Assembly: GCA_030431455.1 (NCBI GenBank)
Contig: JAUIJE010000002.1
Location: 381,294-445,293, forward strand
Length of the DNA: 64,000 bases
Direction: 5' to 3'
DNA from: a bacterium
Lineage (GTDB): Bacteria > Myxococcota > UBA727 > JAUIJE01
The translations under genes were made by a program, and so were the position numbers. The notes beneath the pieces are model-generated. The model ran no database searches. It had not been told where the DNA came from and saw only the letters and a program-made list of their open reading frames with translations. Shown piece by piece: positions 13,313-21,024 of the stretch. The number at the start of each line of letters is the position of its first letter. The first letter of the stretch is position 1.

Positions 13313-15244
13313 GTGGTGCCCGCACGGATCCTGGCCCTGTGTTGTGTGGCGGTGGCCGCGGGCTGCCCCGCGGGCCCGGGCGAGCGCGACGCCGGCGGGC
13401 CCGGCGCGTCCGTCGTCGACGCCGGGCGCACCGTGGGCGCGGACGCGGGGGGCGCGGACGCCGGAGCCGAACCTTTGCGCGACGCGGGCCCGCGCGATGC
13501 GGGTCGCGGGTCGGACGCGGGGGACGTGCTCGACGCGGGCGAACGCCCCCCCGACGCCTCCGTCGTCGACGACGCCGGCCCGTTCGACGCGGCCGCGGGG
13601 CTCGACGCGGGCGCCGTCGACGCGGCCCTGGCCGTCGACGCGAGCCTGCCGGACGCCGGGGCCCCTGATGCCGGCCCCGGCTGCGCGCCCCGCTTCATCC
13701 CCGGACCGGGCTGCCCGGGTCACGACGCCGCCCTCGCGGCCAAAGCCCACCAGTACGAACGCGCCTTTCACGTCGTGGCCGCGGCGCCCTACCACGCCAC
13801 CACCGACGTGGTGGTGACCGATCCCGCCGCCCGGGCCCGGCTCGATGACTTTCTCACCAATGATACGGGATGGGACTACGCCGGCTACACCGGGGTCGCC
13901 CTCGGAGACGATGTCTTGCTGTGGCAGAAGACCGCGGGCCTGTACGCGGGGGCGGGCATCGCCGCCGACGCCTACCGCTATGCAGTGTTGCGCGACGAGG
14001 GCGCGCCCGTCGCCGAGGTCGACCGGGCCCGCGCCCACCTGCTCGACGGGCTCGAGGCCCTGCACCTGGCCAAGACCATTCCCAACACCCCCGGGGTGAT
14101 CGCCCGTGGGGTGGTGCGCACCGACATCGCGAGCCTCACCGTCGACCTCGTGCCCCTCTTCGACCAAAACGGCGACCCCCTCCCCGCGGACAAAAACAAC
14201 GGCACCTGGCGCGCGGACAACTCGGGCCTGTATCCGAACCACGCGTGGGAGGACTCGGTCAGCCGCGACCAGTACATCGGGTGGGTGGCGGCCTACGGCG
14301 CGGCCTGGGAGGTGGTGCAGAGCGATCCCAGCATTCCCTCGCTGTACAAAGACCGTCTGCAGACCGAGGCCGCCGATTTGGGCCAAGCCCTGATGCAGAC
14401 GACCTTGTTTGGCTACGACCTCGAGATCCCCGACGCGGACGGCCGCACCACCTATCATGGATACCTGCATGAAGAGGCCTACGACCGCACATACATTCCG
14501 TTCCTTCCCATCAAAAACGCCGCCAACGCGATCATGGCCCTCGGCATCGTCTCCACCCTCGCCTGGGTGTCGGGCGACGCGGCCCTGACCACCTACCTCC
14601 TCGACGAGCTCATCGCCGCCCGGGACCTCCCCGGCATCATCGAGACCGACATGCAGGTCGACCTCGGACCGAGCAACACCAACTTCAGCAGCTACAACAT
14701 GGTGTTTATGGGGGCTTGGCTCGCCTCGCGCACCCTCCCCGACGCCGCGGCCCGGGCCTCGGTCCGCGCCGCGCTCGACAGCGACATCTATGCCAAGCCG
14801 AACCCGCTGCTCGCCCCCAACCCCACCGCCTGGGGCCAAAGCCTCTACGACTTCATCTACGCCGCGGCCCAGGCGGACGCCTCCGCGGGTGGTCCAGGCA
14901 CATTGCCGGTCGACGACGCCGCGATCCAGCGGGGCGTGGCCACCCTCGCCGCGTTCGACGCCCCCCCGCTCTTTTCCGATGAGGTCCTCAACTGTGACCC
15001 CACCGAAGAAGCCGCGGGCAGCTGCGTGGCCATCGACGGCACCACCACCATCACCGTGCGGGCGGAAAAAGACCGCTTCGACGAGATCCAGGCCGAGGCG
15101 GTGGTGCCCCTGCCCGTGCGCCCCCGCAGCAACTACGAATGGCGCAGCAACCCCTTTCGCATCAACGGCCCGGCCGCGCCGGTGATGGTCTCGGGGGTGG
15201 ACTTCCGGTACGCCTATTGGATGGGCCGCTACCTGCCGCGATGA
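13313..15244 (+). CDS. Large secreted protein with Asp-Ala-Gly linker, unknown catalytic domain
   Basis: The 643-residue protein begins with a lipoprotein-type signal (LALCCVAVAAGC). A linker of about 105 residues rich in DAG and GADAG follows, then a folded C-terminal region of about 500 residues rich in Trp/Tyr and helical segments (TNDTGWDYAGYT, TAGLYAGAG, HGYLHEEAYDRTYIPF). The spacing suggests an alpha/alpha-toroid-like fold, but no family could be assigned. The start is GTG at 13313 or 13316. Its last codon overlaps the ATG of the next gene (ATGA). Confidence 0.6.
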   Translation: MVPARILALCCVAVAAGCPAGPGERDAGGPGASVVDAGRTVGADAGGADAGAEPLRDAGPRDAGRGSDAGDVLDAGERPPDASVVDDAGPFDAAAGLDAGAVDAALAVDASLPDAGAPDAGPGCAPRFIPGPGCPGHDAALAAKAHQYERAFHVVAAAPYHATTDVVVTDPAARARLDDFLTNDTGWDYAGYTGVALGDDVLLWQKTAGLYAGAGIAADAYRYAVLRDEGAPVAEVDRARAHLLDGLEALHLAKTIPNTPGVIARGVVRTDIASLTVDLVPLFDQNGDPLPADKNNGTWRADNSGLYPNHAWEDSVSRDQYIGWVAAYGAAWEVVQSDPSIPSLYKDRLQTEAADLGQALMQTTLFGYDLEIPDADGRTTYHGYLHEEAYDRTYIPFLPIKNAANAIMALGIVSTLAWVSGDAALTTYLLDELIAARDLPGIIETDMQVDLGPSNTNFSSYNMVFMGAWLASRTLPDAAARASVRAALDSDIYAKPNPLLAPNPTAWGQSLYDFIYAAAQADASAGGPGTLPVDDAAIQRGVATLAAFDAPPLFSDEVLNCDPTEEAAGSCVAIDGTTTITVRAEKDRFDEIQAEAVVPLPVRPRSNYEWRSNPFRINGPAAPVMVSGVDFRYAYWMGRYLPR

Positions 15245-16209
15245 GGCGCGTCTCCTTTTCCTTTCTGCTCTTGCTCGGGGCCTCGGCCCTGGCCTGCGCC
15301 ACCGCGCCCCCGGTGGACGACGCCCTGATCGAACGCGGGGCGCGCCGGGCCCCCCTCGCCCCCGATCAAGTGGCATTGCAGTGGCTGGGCACCGCGGGCT
15401 TTGTGCTCCGCACCCCCCACCACACCCTGGTCATCGACCCCTACCTCACCCGGGCGTCGGCGGGCCGGCTCGCGTTTGGCCGGTTGGTGCCCGCCACCGA
15501 GGTCATCGATCGCGCGGTGCCGCCCGCAGACCTGGTGGTCGTCGGCCACAGCCACTTTGACCACGCCCTGGACGCCCCCCACATCGCGGCCCGCGACGAC
15601 GCGTTGCTGCTGGGGACCGAGACCACGTGTCTGTTGGCCCGGCGCCTCGCCCCCGCGGCGCGCTGTCGCAACGTGGCCCGCCGGCCCCGCTATTCCCAAA
15701 AAGACCTGCGGATGCTGTTCGTGCCCTCGCAACACGTCGAGGCCCCCCTCATCGGGGTGCCCATCCCCGGCACGTTGGCGCGCGCGCCCCAAAGCGACCA
15801 AGCCCCCCACGCCATCGAGATGCCGATGGGCGGCGCCTTGATCACGGTGGTGCGCACCGGGGGCCTGACCTTGGTGCACATCTCCAGCTCCGCGTTGCCC
15901 GCCTCCCCCACCGCGCTGCCCGCGGCGGTGCCCGAGGGGGCCGACGTGGTCTTGGCCTCGTCCGCCGCCTATACCCATTTCCCCGACTACGTCTCGCGTC
16001 TGGTGAATGAACTCCGGCCGCGTCTCGTCATTCCCCATCATTTTGAATCCTTCATCACCCCCCTGGCCCCCGACCTCGACGACAGCGCCCGCGCCGACGC
16101 CGATGCCTTCGTGGCCGCGGTCCAGGCCGAAGGCGTGGCCGCCGAAGTGCCCGAACCCTTCGCCGAACGCGTGGTCTCCCCCGCGACCCTGCCCTCCCGC
16201 CTCCGTTGA
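15241..16209 (+). CDS. Lipoprotein with metallo-beta-lactamase fold (UlaG-like)
   Basis: A 322-residue protein with a lipobox start (LLLLGASALAC). It then has the MBL-fold hydrolase pattern: WLGTAGFVL, VIDPYLTR, GHSHFDHALD (HxHxDH zinc ligands, here HSHFDHALD) and a late His pair in VIPHHFESF. The overall shape is that of L-ascorbate lactonase or N-acylphosphatidylethanolamine PLD-like MBL proteins. It would act outside the cytoplasm. The ATG overlaps the previous stop in ATGA and the gene ends 30 bp before the sigma factor, so it could be the first part of a longer operon. Confidence 0.75.
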   Translation: MRRVSFSFLLLLGASALACATAPPVDDALIERGARRAPLAPDQVALQWLGTAGFVLRTPHHTLVIDPYLTRASAGRLAFGRLVPATEVIDRAVPPADLVVVGHSHFDHALDAPHIAARDDALLLGTETTCLLARRLAPAARCRNVARRPRYSQKDLRMLFVPSQHVEAPLIGVPIPGTLARAPQSDQAPHAIEMPMGGALITVVRTGGLTLVHISSSALPASPTALPAAVPEGADVVLASSAAYTHFPDYVSRLVNELRPRLVIPHHFESFITPLAPDLDDSARADADAFVAAVQAEGVAAEVPEPFAERVVSPATLPSRLR

Positions 16210-16239: not shown

Positions 16240-16845
16240 ATGATTCTCGTCGAGGACCGCGCCCTGCTCGACGCCTTCCGCCGGGGCGAGCACGCCGCGC
16301 TCGAAACCGTCTATCGCGCCTACGTCGACCTCGTGGCCGCGGTGGCCCGGCGCGGATTTGTGCTCGACCGGCAAGGGGGCGCGCACGTCCCGGGCGCGGC
16401 CACCGACGCTGAACAACAGGACATCATCCAAGAGACCTTCACCCGGGCGTTCGCGGAGAAAGCGCGGCTCTCTTACGATGGGTTGCAGCCCTACCGCCCG
16501 TGGCTGATGCGCATCTGCAAGAACTTGATGATCGATCGGGTCCGCAAAGCCGGTCGCGAAATCAGCCACCCCGAGATCGATCTCGGGGCCGACGACACCC
16601 TGCCCGAACCCGAGCTCAGCCTCGACGAGCGCCGCCTGCAACATGCCACCGCCGCGTTTGTGGCCCAGCTCGACGAGCCGTCGGCGACGCTGTACCGGCT
16701 CCGCTACACCGAGGGCTTGCCCCAGCACCGGGTCGCCACCGAGATGGGGGTGGGCCGCAAGAAGGTCCGTTTGCTCGAGGCCGATCTGCGCGATGGGTTG
16801 TACCAGTGGTTGGCCGCCCGCGACCTCGTGGAGGGGTTGTCGTGA
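16240..16845 (+). CDS. ECF-type sigma-70 RNA polymerase factor
   Basis: A 201-residue sigma factor with region 2 (about residues 8-100: AFRRGEHAALETVYRAYVDL, then DIIQETFTRAF and PWLMRICKNLMIDRVRK) and region 4 (about 130-185: LPQHRVATEMGVGRKKVRLLE). There is no region 3, as in ECF factors. An unusual insertion of about 25 residues (GGAHVPGAATDAEQQ) sits inside region 2. It directs RNA polymerase to alternative promoters. The next gene may be coupled: GTG and ATG at 16842 and 16845 overlap its stop. Downstream are a lipoprotein, a membrane protein and a caspase-like protease, so it probably controls or responds to that set. Confidence 0.85.
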   Translation: MILVEDRALLDAFRRGEHAALETVYRAYVDLVAAVARRGFVLDRQGGAHVPGAATDAEQQDIIQETFTRAFAEKARLSYDGLQPYRPWLMRICKNLMIDRVRKAGREISHPEIDLGADDTLPEPELSLDERRLQHATAAFVAQLDEPSATLYRLRYTEGLPQHRVATEMGVGRKKVRLLEADLRDGLYQWLAARDLVEGLS

Positions 16846-16864
16846 TGCCGTCCGCGCACCGGCC

Positions 16865-16897
16865 GGGGCCCAGATCTGCGCGCGCCCGTAGGAGTCC
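16865..16897 (+). repeat. Shared element GGGGCCCA-N14-CGTAGGAG, copy 1
   Basis: GGGGCCCA (16865-16872) and CGTAGGAGTCC (16887-16897) with a 14-base gap. The same two blocks with the same gap occur at 20262-20294, before another Cys-rich Gly-Asp lipoprotein. It lies 79 bp before the ATG at 16977, which argues that this stretch is untranslated leader and not coding. Confidence 0.4.
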
Positions 16898-16976
16898 AAA
16901 AGCGGCCCAGCGGTCCGGTCGACAACCCCGGGGCCACGTGCTGTTGTGGGCCAAGAGGGGCGGGGACACCATCGGG

Positions 16977-18017
16977 ATGACGCGCGACATCGCACACCTG
17001 GGCGCCTGGGGCCGGCTGGCGGTCGGGGCGGGGGTGCTCTTGGTCGCCCTCGTCGGCTGCGTGCTCGACCTCCGGGGGAAAGACCGGTGCGAGGGCGAGG
17101 GCGATTGCATCAGCGGATACGACTGTGTGCAGGGACATTGTGAGTGGCCCCGGGGGGACGGGGCGTTGTGCGACAACACCTGCGACACCGCGCGCGACGG
17201 GGCCTGCGACGACGGCGGGGCGGGGGCCACGTTCGACCTGTGTACCCTGGGCACCGACTGCGCCGACTGCGGGGCGCGCGACGTCGCGGGCGACGGCGAC
17301 GGAGACGGGGACGGGGACTGCGAATCGGACTGCGCCGCGGAGGGCTACGCCTGCAATGAGGACGTGTGCATGGCCCAGTCCAAGTTTGAAGATGACTTGT
17401 ATGTGTGCGCCGATGCGTCCCCCGCGTGCCCCGGCGACCAGGTGTGTGTGCTCGGCTTGTGCGCGCCGCCCTGCGACGACGACACGGATTGTTTGATCGG
17501 GATGCAGTGCGACGAGTACAACACCGACCGGTGTCTGTACGACGACGTCAACGAGTGCATGGACGCGGGCGACTGCGACCCCAGCCAGAACTGCGTGGCG
17601 GGGTTGTGCGTGGGCACGGTGACACCGCTTGCATGTACATTGTACCGGCTTGACGACTGCGGCCCCCGCGAGCTGTGCCTCGATGTCGATGACGGGCCCA
17701 ACGTCACCACCGCGTGCGTGGAGATTCCCGCCTGCGACCAGTTCAACCAATGTGCGGACGGGGGCCAGGGATCGGTGTGCAACATCGACGACCGGGCCCC
17801 CGACAAACAGCGCATCTGTCTGGTGGGACGCTGCGTCGGCTCGTCCGACTGTCCGGTCAACCCCTTCGGGTGGGAGTGCCTGCAACCGGGGGGCAGCGAC
17901 GAGCTGGGTTGGTGCACGGACTTCGCGGTCGGCGCCCCGTGCACCGCCGAGACCGCCGACGCCTGCCCGGGCGCGGTCTGTGACATCACCGACGGCGTGG
18001 TGGGGGTGTGCACATGA
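16977..18017 (+). CDS. Cys-rich lipoprotein with Gly-Asp tract
   Basis: The 346-residue protein has a signal anchor (LAVGAGVLLVALVGC) then about 30 Cys residues spaced as repeated short EB/EGF-like modules, for example CEGEGDCISGYDC, CVQGHCEW, CDDDTDCLIGMQC and CMDAGDCDPSQNC. A short [10 protein letters not shown] tract lies near residue 105. Such modules are common in secreted myxobacterial lipoproteins and are probably disulfide-bonded. ATG at 16977 is chosen because it begins a clean signal peptide and leaves a conserved leader element upstream. Starts at 16842 or 16845 would add about 44 basic residues. Its stop overlaps the next ATG (ATGA). Confidence 0.7.
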   Translation: MTRDIAHLGAWGRLAVGAGVLLVALVGCVLDLRGKDRCEGEGDCISGYDCVQGHCEWPRGDGALCDNTCDTARDGACDDGGAGATFDLCTLGTDCADCGARDVAGDGDGDGDGDCESDCAAEGYACNEDVCMAQSKFEDDLYVCADASPACPGDQVCVLGLCAPPCDDDTDCLIGMQCDEYNTDRCLYDDVNECMDAGDCDPSQNCVAGLCVGTVTPLACTLYRLDDCGPRELCLDVDDGPNVTTACVEIPACDQFNQCADGGQGSVCNIDDRAPDKQRICLVGRCVGSSDCPVNPFGWECLQPGGSDELGWCTDFAVGAPCTAETADACPGAVCDITDGVVGVCT

Positions 18018-18679
18018 GCGGCCGCGATCCCCGCGTCGATCAGAAACTCGACCGCCTGCTCTCCGGGGGGCGTGGGCCGTCGGTGCAAGAAAAGGAAGCG
18101 ATGTTCGAGGCGGTGCTCCGGGACCTGCCTGCGACCCCCGGCCCGGACAAGACCGGGGGCAAGGCCCAGAGCCCGTTCGCGTGGTTGTCACTGTTGGCCG
18201 CCGCGGCCTGCGCGGTGCTGTTTGTCGTCGTCGGGGATGAGGCGCGGCCCGATGCGTTCACCGTGCGCGGTCCCGCCGACCGCAGCGAGGCCATCGCCCT
18301 GCACGCGGGGTGTGGGGAGGTCAGCCGCCGGGTGGGCGCGAGCTGGAACACACCCTTGTCCTGCTCGATGAATCATCCAGTGGCATTGCGCACGGTGCGC
18401 ACCGCCCCCGGGTGGTCGCTGAGCGTGGCGGTGTTCAGCCCGGACGGCACCTTGACCTGGGTGCTGCCGCCGTCGGGCGTGGCCGACGCCCAACCCGGCC
18501 CGGTGGGCACCGAGGACGTGACGTTTGCCCTCGACCGCCTTCCGCCCGGCCGCACCACGCTGCTCGCGACGTTCGCCGAAGGGGCGCTGTCCCGGGACGC
18601 GGCCCGGGCCCGGTTCGCCGCCCACCTCGAGGGCCAAGACGCGCCCGTGGTCGAGCTCGTGCTCGAGGTAAAACGATGA
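18014..18679 (+). CDS. Single-pass membrane protein between sigma factor and caspase (anti-sigma-like position)
   Basis: A 221-residue protein. The first 55 residues are polar and charged (SGRDPRVDQKLDRLLSGGR), a single transmembrane helix follows (WLSLLAAAACAVLFVVV, about residues 58-75), and the remaining 145 residues would be outside, with two Cys (HAGCGEV, LSCSMNH). This topology, with a short cytosolic N-terminus encoded just after an ECF sigma gene, is typical of transmembrane anti-sigma factors, but no zinc-binding anti-sigma motif (HxxxCxxC) is seen. Both ends overlap neighbours in ATGA, so it is tightly coupled. Confidence 0.6.
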   Translation: MSGRDPRVDQKLDRLLSGGRGPSVQEKEAMFEAVLRDLPATPGPDKTGGKAQSPFAWLSLLAAAACAVLFVVVGDEARPDAFTVRGPADRSEAIALHAGCGEVSRRVGASWNTPLSCSMNHPVALRTVRTAPGWSLSVAVFSPDGTLTWVLPPSGVADAQPGPVGTEDVTFALDRLPPGRTTLLATFAEGALSRDAARARFAAHLEGQDAPVVELVLEVKR

Positions 18680-20235
18680 CCGGGGCCCTGGCCGGTGCGT
18701 TGGCCGCGGCGTGGCTCTCGGCGGCGCCGCCGGCCGCGGTCCCGGCCCCGGCGGTGTTCGCGGTGCACATCGGCATCAACCAAGCCCCGGCGGGGAGCGC
18801 GCTGCCCGCGTTGCGCTACGCGGACGACGACGCGGTCCGCTTTTACCGCTTCACGCAGACGTTCACCGAACAAGCGTGGCTGGTCACGGTGTTCGACGAC
18901 CAGACCGCGCGCCGCCACCGCGACCTGCTCGGCCGCACCGTGGCCCCCCACCGGCGCGGGGTCGAGACTGTGCTCGACGAGCTGCAACGGGCCTTGGCCG
19001 ATGCAGAGACATCGGGCCGGCGCCGGGTGGTGATGTTCTCGTTTTCGGGCCACGGGGTGATGGGCCCGGGCGGGGCCGGCTTGGCCCTGTTGGACGGCGC
19101 CCTCGACCGGAGCTTTCTCGTCGAGAAGGTCGCCGCCCTCCCCGCGGACGAGGTGCACCTCTTCTTTGACGCCTGCCACGCCGAGGGCGTGGTGGGCGAA
19201 AAGGGGGCGATCCTCCAAGAACAAACCGTGGCCACCGCCCCCGCCGACCCGCGCATGGCCGCGCGGGTGTTTGCCGACGACTTTTTCGCCCGGCACCCGC
19301 ACATCGGGGCGGTGTTGGCGAGCGCGGCCGACCAACAGACCCATGAATGGTCGCGGCTCGAGGGCGGGGTGTTCACCCACGAGGTGTTGAGCGCCCTGCG
19401 CGGCTCAGCCGACATCAACGGGGACGGGCAGGTCGCCTACAGCGAACTGTCCGCGTTCGTGGCCGCGGCCAACCGCAGCGTCGCCGACCAAAAAGCGGTG
19501 CCCCGGTTGATCACCCGCCCCCCCCAGCTCAACCCCGGGGCGGTGTTGGTGGACGCGTCCTGGTTGCGAGCGTCGTCGTTCGTCGTCGGAGAGGGCGGGG
19601 CCTGGGGGCATTTTTACATCGAACGCGACGACGGGTTGCGGGTGCTCGACGCCCACCTCGACGCGGCCCAGCGTTTTCGGGTCGCGGTCCCCGCGGGAGA
19701 GACATTGTGGGTGCGCACCGCGGACAACGAAGCCCGGCTCGCGCTCGCCGAGAACGAAGTGGTCGATCTCGCCGACCTCGCCCTGCGGCCGGTGGACGCC
19801 CGGGGCCGCGGCAGCGTGGCCACGTCGTTGCAGGCCGGTCTGTTCCAGGCACCGTTTGGGCGCGCGTATTACGCGGGGTGGGTCGACTCGCAGGGGCTGC
19901 TGCCGGTGGCGTTCGCGCCGGTGGCGTCCGCGGTCGCCGCGCCGGTGGACGGCGCGCCGGGGGCCACCGCGGCGGACGCGCCCACGTCGTGGGCGATGAT
20001 CACCACCCTCGGGTTGTTGGGCGGCGCGGGGGTCGCGGCGGTGGTGGGCGCGGCGGCGGGGGTGGGCATGGCGGTGTCGCTGATGCAGTTTCATTCGACG
20101 GACCTGCAGGCGCCGGCGGCGGGTGCGGCCGGGCGCTTCTATGTGGCCCAAAATGTGGCCGCGGTGTCGGGCATCGCCGTGGTCCTGTTGGCCGGGGCCG
20201 CGGGGGGCGCGGCGCTGTGGTGGGCGGCGGAATAG
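18676..20235 (+). CDS. Exported caspase-like (C14) protease with EF-hand loop and C-terminal membrane helices
   Basis: The 519-residue protein has a signal-like N-terminus (about 1-30) and a caspase p20 domain (about 30-240). The start is VFAVHIGINQ; the catalytic His is in FSFSGHGV (residue 126) and the catalytic Cys in FFDACHAEG (residue 167). At residue 246 a calcium-binding EF-hand loop is seen (DINGDGQVAYSE). Two hydrophobic segments near the C-terminus (about 434-460 and 490-515) suggest membrane anchoring. The dyad makes peptidase activity plausible, with Arg/Lys specificity usual for metacaspase relatives. It is the last gene in an overlapping set downstream of a sigma factor. Confidence 0.8.
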   Translation: MTGALAGALAAAWLSAAPPAAVPAPAVFAVHIGINQAPAGSALPALRYADDDAVRFYRFTQTFTEQAWLVTVFDDQTARRHRDLLGRTVAPHRRGVETVLDELQRALADAETSGRRRVVMFSFSGHGVMGPGGAGLALLDGALDRSFLVEKVAALPADEVHLFFDACHAEGVVGEKGAILQEQTVATAPADPRMAARVFADDFFARHPHIGAVLASAADQQTHEWSRLEGGVFTHEVLSALRGSADINGDGQVAYSELSAFVAAANRSVADQKAVPRLITRPPQLNPGAVLVDASWLRASSFVVGEGGAWGHFYIERDDGLRVLDAHLDAAQRFRVAVPAGETLWVRTADNEARLALAENEVVDLADLALRPVDARGRGSVATSLQAGLFQAPFGRAYYAGWVDSQGLLPVAFAPVASAVAAPVDGAPGATAADAPTSWAMITTLGLLGGAGVAAVVGAAAGVGMAVSLMQFHSTDLQAPAAGAAGRFYVAQNVAAVSGIAVVLLAGAAGGAALWWAAE

Positions 20236-20337: not shown

Positions 20338-21024
20338 ATGGTGAAGCGTTCGATCTTGTTGTTCTTCTTGGCGTTGGCCCCGGCCGCGGTGTTCCCGGCC
20401 TGTGACGGCGGCGGGGGTGATGGGGATGGTGATGGGGATGGCGACGGCGATGGGGATGGCGACGGTGATGGGGATGGCGACGGTGATGGGGATGGCGACG
20501 GTGATGGCGATGGCGATGGCGACGGCGATGGGGATGGCGATGGCGACGCCAACTGCAGCGACGCGTGCCAGGCGATCGACGGGTGCGGGGGCATCACCGT
20601 GGCCGACTGCATGCCGGCCTGTGAGCAGAGCTTTTCCCAATCCGAACGAAACTGCGTGGCCGCGCAGAATACCTGCGCGGATGCCGACGCGTGTTTTCAG
20701 ACCGGGGACGGCGACGGCGACGGGGACGGCGACGGCGACGGCGACGGCGACATCGGGGACGACTGCGACACCGCCGCGGATTGCGACTCGGCCTATTGCC
20801 GGACCCCCGCGGGGGGCTTTCAAGGGCAATGCGCGGTCAACGACTTCGGCAACACCTGCGAAGGCCCGAGCGACTGCGAGTACGGCGCGTGTTTGGTGAG
20901 CTCGGACGGCAACGACGTGGCCGGCTACTGTTCGGCGACCTGCGAGAACTTCACCGATTGCCCCACGTTCTGGGACTGTGAAGAGCTGGGCAACGCCGCG
21001 GGCACCTACTGCGTGCAATCCTAG
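20338..21024 (+). CDS. Cys-rich lipoprotein with long Gly-Asp repeats
   Basis: A 228-residue lipoprotein (lipobox AAVFPAC). A Gly-Asp tract of about 22 units follows the anchor, then a Cys-rich module (NCSDACQAIDGC, CMPACEQS), a second shorter Gly-Asp tract of about 8 units, and a last Cys-rich module (DDCDTAADCDSAYC, CEGPSDCEYGAC). The Cys spacing matches the EB-like modules of the 16977 protein. Gly-Asp tracts may bind calcium or act as flexible surface stalks. The ATG at 20338 begins a good signal peptide. It may belong to the same response as the caspase set, from which it is separated by about 100 bp. Confidence 0.7.
   Translation: MVKRSILLFFLALAPAAVFPACDGGGGDGDGDGDGDGDGDGDGDGDGDGDGDGDGDGDGDGDGDGDGDGDANCSDACQAIDGCGGITVADCMPACEQSFSQSERNCVAAQNTCADADACFQTGDGDGDGDGDGDGDGDIGDDCDTAADCDSAYCRTPAGGFQGQCAVNDFGNTCEGPSDCEYGACLVSSDGNDVAGYCSATCENFTDCPTFWDCEELGNAAGTYCVQS
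20416..20547 (+). repeat. Hexameric GGNGAY microsatellite (Gly-Asp codons)
   Basis: A tandem array of GGN-GAY codon pairs inside the 20338 gene. The third positions vary (GGGGAT, GGCGAC, GGTGAT), so it is imperfect, but it could still slip in replication and change the stalk length. Confidence 0.7.

Follow-up and report, generated by a model that had tools for sequence, protein, structure and literature searches.

Why should a caspase be encoded beside an ECF sigma factor, and does the protease act on the regulator or does the regulator govern the protease? The role of most bacterial caspases is an open question, usually framed in terms of cell death. The gene set that raises it here lies in a 64,000-nucleotide stretch (the window), part of the 7.7-Mb draft genome of a member of the Myxococcota. 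A first-pass annotation had described, in order, an ECF sigma factor, a Cys-rich lipoprotein, a single-pass transmembrane (TM) protein and an exported C14 protease with an intact His/Cys dyad and an EF-hand loop. It had proposed that they form a coupled module for surface signalling or regulated cell death, to which two upstream genes might also belong.

Four coupled genes in the window

The reading frames and the profile matches bear out this description of the four products, and the coordinates and frames of all four genes were confirmed as first described (Table 1). The sigma factor is matched over cut-off by Pfam Sigma70_r2 (E = 2e-8) and by NCBIfam TIGR02937 (E = 1.4e-16), with region 4 aligned below its cut-off; it has regions 2 and 4 and no region 3, the arrangement of an ECF sigma factor. 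The Cys-rich lipoprotein matched no Pfam family. An alternative in-frame ATG for its gene, at 16845, overlaps the stop codon of the sigma gene, but the start at 16977 fits a lipoprotein better because the lipobox LVGC agrees with it. The ATGA overlaps said to join the last three genes are real, one at 18014 (lipoprotein/TM protein) and the other at 18676 (TM protein/caspase). A third ATGA overlap joins the gene at 13313-15244 to that of an MBL-fold lipoprotein (15241-16209), and the gap from there to the sigma gene is 30 bp; given this upstream coupling and short gap, all six genes may share one transcript here. Gene 13313-15244 encodes a large lipoprotein-like protein whose N-terminal part is rich in Asp and Ala; none of the Pfam or NCBIfam families matched it. 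Directly after the caspase gene lies a lipoprotein-like gene (20341-21024) that may share its transcript; tandem repeats of 6/18 bp at 20419-20546 code for a (GD)n stretch in its product. A promoter scan covering sigma-70-type sites only found none, and terminator-like matches were no more frequent than in shuffled sequence.

Table 1. Genes, sites and segments of the caspase gene set, in coordinates of the window
Feature	Coordinates	Strand	Evidence
ECF sigma factor, 201 aa	16240..16845	+	Sigma70_r2, TIGR02937; homologue beside 104/115 related caspases
Cys-rich lipoprotein, variable lineage-specific member, 346 aa	16977..18017	+	Lipobox LVGC, many Cys, near-copy homologues
Predicted membrane anti-sigma factor, 221 aa, TM helix aa 56-73	18014..18679	+	zf-HC2 homologues, single TM, AlphaFold2 model, ATGA on both sides
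Proposed site-1 cleavage site R85/G86, anti-sigma factor	18266..18271	+	R/K in 108/110; linker 75-88 with pLDDT <50
Exported, probably membrane-tethered caspase (Peptidase C14), 519 aa	18676..20235	+	PF00656; fold match to caspases
Catalytic His126	19051..19053	+	Invariant in 115/115
Catalytic Cys167, with invariant Asp165 two residues before	19174..19176	+	Invariant in 115/115
Proposed self-cleavage site K176/G177, loop after catalytic Cys	19201..19206	+	R/K in 115/115
EF-hand-type loop D246-E257, inside caspase domain	19411..19446	+	D246 and E257 invariant in A3
Proposed self-cleavage site R378/G379, before membrane anchor	19807..19812	+	R/K in 114/115
C-terminal hydrophobic helix pair, aa 438-474 and 478-518	19987..20229	+	Hydropathy, AlphaFold2 model

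The triad is conserved in Myxococcota

A search of 58 genomes for the caspase gave matches in 39, and the surroundings of 49 copies were taken for gene calling; from a scan of one genome per species (84,980 species) the best 80 of 183 loci were added, and removal of duplicates left 115 non-redundant caspases. Genes outside the window were called by a simple codon-usage method and by searching open frames with HMMs, rather than taken from curated annotation. In this set (the 49 copies and the best 80 of 183 loci), a homologue of the TM protein lies near 110 of the 115 caspases and a sigma homologue near 104; several of the caspases with no TM or sigma partner sit at contig ends. Such conservation is far beyond chance. 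The neighbourhood in relatives had been named beforehand as the observation on which the reading of a coupled surface-signalling set should stand or fall; its presence supports that reading.

The order sigma factor-TM protein-caspase is found in most of the 49 copies, often with 4-bp overlaps, and in many loci of Archangium, Pyxidicoccus and Corallococcus the sigma and TM genes adjoin the caspase gene on the opposite strand. Among the best 80 of 183 loci, the titles are those of Myxococcota, 'Deltaproteobacteria' or uncultured proteobacteria and include Archangium, Corallococcus, Myxococcus, Pyxidicoccus, Plesiocystis and Enhygromyxa; the named relatives of the window caspase are Myxococcota. 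No plasmid copies were found by tblastn. The genome of the window itself has ten caspases, of both of the classes distinguished below, nine of which have sigma and anti-sigma genes. The tenth (L079) is an orphan paralogue, followed by a Cys-rich lipoprotein gene; neither a sigma nor an anti-sigma gene lies near it, and it has retained the dyad and the motifs described below.

Only the triad is constant across the copies. Homologues of the Cys-rich lipoprotein are confined to the nearest relatives (e.g. L038-L040) and a few others, and many other copies have a different lipoprotein instead, often right after the caspase. No homologue of the MBL-fold gene or of the 13313 gene was found beside any other copy examined, and their suggested membership of the module was rejected on this ground.

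The membrane protein as a predicted anti-sigma factor

The anti-sigma-like position of the TM protein is matched by its family, since zf-HC2 was found in 13 of 58 homologues; the zinc-finger motif can be read in homologues (e.g. HLKSCDSC in L061), and the zinc ligands are lost in the window protein and its closest relatives. DUF4384 matched 2 of the 58. The AlphaFold2 model of the window protein consists of two N-terminal helices, the TM helix and a confident periplasmic beta-sandwich, for which a fold search of the PDB returned only generic beta-sandwiches (e.g. RhoGDI) with low TM-scores; residues 75-88 form a linker of the lowest model confidence (pLDDT <50). To judge from its homologues, the TM protein is probably an anti-sigma factor, and family and gene order suggest that it would bind and inhibit the sigma factor.

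A caspase with two basic motifs and a calcium-type loop

PF00656 was the sole match of the caspase (E = 8e-10), with no TPR or CHAT match, and in Foldseek its model matched caspases; the caspase fold and the His/Cys dyad are both in place. About ten residues past the catalytic Cys, R/K followed by G occurs in 115 of 115 caspases, and a second R/K-G motif, past the beta domain and ahead of the C-terminal anchor, is present in 114 of 115 (R-G or a near form). In the AlphaFold2 model, pLDDT drops below 50 in residues 177-189, 378-384 and 419-436 only, and the first two of these disordered stretches start at the two R/K-G motifs. Characterised non-animal C14 proteases need Arg or Lys at P1, and their activation involves cuts after the catalytic Cys, which in type II metacaspases are calcium-induced and fall in the p20-p10 linker (PMC5756287). 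For the window caspase it is Asp165, at Cys-2, and the R/K-G motifs that point to cleavage after Arg or Lys.

The EF-hand-type loop (DINGDGQVAYSE, aa 246-257) carries D246, N248, D250 and E257 at positions 1, 3, 5 and 12, where acidic residues are sought, and represents the loop only of an EF hand. Its pattern is present in 112 of 113 class I and 40 of 42 class II caspases, and the family profile aligns it with solved EF-hand proteins. The first-pass picture of a calcium-linked envelope protease is supported to the extent that the caspase is predicted to be an exported protease with a calcium-type loop. Having two C-terminal hydrophobic helices, it is therefore probably membrane-tethered. Past the second motif, the C-terminus varies by lineage, ending in two TM helices, in a short end or in a long tail with no TM helix. 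Such a long tail follows the second R-G motif in L058, L126, L135, L153 and L162, where it might form an outer-membrane barrel.

A basic motif in the anti-sigma linker

One column of the anti-sigma alignment is R/K in 108 of 110 TM proteins (class I); of the two that differ, one is a weak match with a gap at this place and the other is truncated. Across the whole protein, no column holds any single residue at more than 86%. The column belongs to a linker motif outside the membrane, with the consensus [F/W]-x-[A/P/S]-[R/K]-[G/S] (phi-x-A-R-G; F82-T-V-R85-G86 in the window protein), at a median of 13 residues past the best hydrophobic window. In class I its distance floats, from 5-28 residues from the end of the TM helix and 10-30 residues to the next conserved column. 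Because of this floating distance, and because it falls in the least confident region of the model, we regard it as a linear motif rather than as part of the fold.

In its loose form, the motif is found in 6 of 14 other ECF-linked anti-sigma factors of the phylum, against 99 of 106 here (p = 1.6e-5), a useful but weak control because the loose pattern arises by chance, as the 6/14 indicates. A first control, with 30 sigma loci of the same genome, had given only five usable cases. Anti-sigma homologues with no caspase nearby are rare, and were dropped as a clean control since only four were informative and the outcome was mixed: L299 and L302 keep the motif, L303 is without it and L308 is ambiguous. 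Our guess is that L299 and L302 may be served by a caspase encoded elsewhere in the genome. In L303 (5020-6264), sigma and anti-sigma factor are apparently fused in one open frame, with the periplasmic domain kept.

The motifs of linker and caspase differ together in a second class

An out-of-sample set, termed class II, was formed by 40 loci with weaker caspase matches together with L084 and L085 from the same genome as the window. A sigma gene is present at 38 of these 42 loci and a TM protein at 39. In class II the motif reads R-x-K-G in the anti-sigma factor and in the caspase loop alike: Lys at P1 is found in 30/38 anti-sigma factors and 40/42 caspases, against 13/106 and 5/113 in class I, and Arg at P3 in 31/38 and 29/42, against 11/106 and 2/113. 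Since both classes share one genome, base composition does not explain the switch; since it is a single deep difference, no p-value for independent events is attached to it. The exceptions are five of 38 anti-sigma factors with Met at P1 (R-x-M-G; L233, L247, L251, L254 and L255), the caspases of which keep K/R-G. In the class II anti-sigma factors, the first strand of the periplasmic domain follows immediately on the motif. Covariation of R and K within class I was significant in a raw test and after stratification by composition (p = 3.5e-4), and not significant in a tree-based test (median p = 0.22); as it fails once the tree is allowed for, we do not rely on it as proof of co-evolution.

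A proposed proteolytic switch and its alternatives

We consider it rather probable, from these sequence features, that the caspase acts as site-1 protease on its own anti-sigma factor. In this view the single-pass anti-sigma factor would keep the sigma factor at the inner membrane. The caspase would be exported and anchored on the outer side of that membrane, an Arg/Lys-specific cysteine protease kept as a zymogen with a calcium-type loop. An envelope signal, of which the variable lipoproteins are candidate sensors, would activate it, probably by self-cuts at K176/G177 and R378/G379; the active caspase would make the site-1 cut in the anti-sigma factor at R85/G86, where the linker lies exposed just beyond the membrane; the stub left in the membrane would then be cut by an RseP-type site-2 protease, and degradation of the remainder would free the sigma factor. 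This is the course that we infer for the cutting of the anti-sigma factor by the caspase, the self-cleavage, the order of events, the calcium dependence and the later degradation.

Both components expected of a system controlled by regulated intramembrane proteolysis (RIP) are present, a single-pass anti-sigma factor and, in the genome, site-2 proteases, two of the RseP type scoring over cut-off. Taken together, the exported protease, the exposed basic motif of the anti-sigma factor, the match between the motifs of the two proteins and the RseP-type proteases are accounted for most simply if the first cut is made by the caspase. The persistence of the triad even where its genes are divergent also speaks for this. 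Against it count the class II factors with Met at P1, the motif of L299 and L302, which have no caspase nearby, the outcome of the tree-based covariation test in class I, and the fact that the two classes are separated by one deep difference instead of many independent events; caspase anchors, too, vary by lineage, and an inner-membrane seat for all of them is an assumption. We see about even chances for the broader proposal that paralogous, envelope-anchored caspases with calcium-type loops are dedicated site-1 proteases in Myxococcota, with a shared cleavage motif that pairs each of them with its own anti-sigma factor, protease and substrate having diverged together.

The caspase might instead be an output: some other protease would cut the anti-sigma factor first, and the freed sigma factor would raise the operon that encodes it, and with it a caspase whose action lies elsewhere in the envelope. 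It is common for ECF sigma factors to drive the operons they belong to, shared transcription fits either direction, and L299 and L302 retain the linker motif with no caspase nearby. However, the motif common to the linker and the caspase loops, differing together between the classes, would be left unexplained, as would the linkage in divergent arrangements, and we hold this reading to be rather unlikely. The same motif data would also fit if the linker, uncut, occupied the caspase active site as an inhibitory pseudosubstrate, coupling control of caspase and sigma factor, and ATGA gene overlaps are frequent among stable partners; yet a Gly or Ser after the basic residue of an unstructured linker suits a substrate, and the model has no inhibitory fold around the motif, which makes such inhibition improbable. 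We find it decidedly improbable that the motif is structural, marking the membrane border or the start of the beta domain in a gene set that is only a regulon, with no proteolysis: its place immediately before the first periplasmic strand in class II would fit, but in class I it floats relative to both neighbouring conserved elements in a region modelled as disordered, and L303 retains the domain without the motif. A regulated cell-death module, in which the sigma factor would induce a caspase that kills the cell, was part of the first-pass reading and is scarcely credible: the caspase fold and the lysis of myxobacteria during development would favour it, but nothing in the data points there, no gene for killing, such as a pore-former or a nuclease, turns up repeatedly in the module, the protease is exported, and a single genome retains ten caspases, nine of which come with a sigma factor of their own.

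The recurrence of the proposed switch across Myxococcota, often in several copies per genome, suggests that the caspases there control gene expression rather than cell death. If the caspase is indeed the site-1 protease, a large group of caspases gains a specific job, the release of a sigma factor by a cut at a named residue, and bacterial caspases of this kind are signalling proteases. The caspase fold would join those of site-1 proteases, with a second caspase-clan enzyme, after Csx29/Csx30, controlling an ECF sigma factor. In this genome, such cleavage could also account for the activation of 9 of the ~45-50 ECF sigma factors, about a fifth.

Comparison with known systems

The proposed switch resembles the RIP systems (DegS/RseP acting on RseA; RsiV, RsiW) in its ECF sigma factor, its single-pass anti-sigma factor and a first cut expected outside the membrane. 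In those systems the site-1 protease is DegS, signal peptidase or PrsW, whereas here it would be a caspase encoded in the same operon. With metacaspases and orthocaspases the window caspase shares the HC dyad, D-x-C, an expected basic P1 and activation cuts expected after the catalytic Cys (PMC5756287); unlike them, it has a signal peptide, an EF-hand-type loop in the caspase domain, an extra beta domain and a membrane anchor. The sole caspase-like solved structure that aligns with it by sequence, and weakly, is GSU0716 (3bij).

There is a functional likeness to Csx29/Csx30/CASP-sigma of type III-E CRISPR, in which a caspase-clan protease cuts the inhibitor of an ECF sigma factor in the cytoplasm (PMC10028731). 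The two would work alike at most: Csx29 is a cytoplasmic, RNA-guided TPR-CHAT protease associated with Cas7-11, and its inhibitor is unrelated, whereas here an exported C14 caspase faces a membrane anti-sigma factor. In the literature searched, which was without most subscription papers, we found no report of this anti-sigma factor or motif and no paper joining envelope caspases to anti-sigma cleavage. Sigma factors were noted in 2012 in four of the five metacaspase operons of M. xanthus, and likewise in operons of this kind from Anaeromyxobacter, Haliangium, Sorangium, Ralstonia and Fibrobacter (PMC3501461). The section of that paper on these Sigma-70/metacaspase operons describes the same sigma-caspase linkage as found here, without mention of an anti-sigma factor, a cleavage motif, export or a mechanism. 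Relative to that section, the linkage was thus already on record, and what the present analysis adds is the conserved basic motif in the anti-sigma linker and its like in the caspase.
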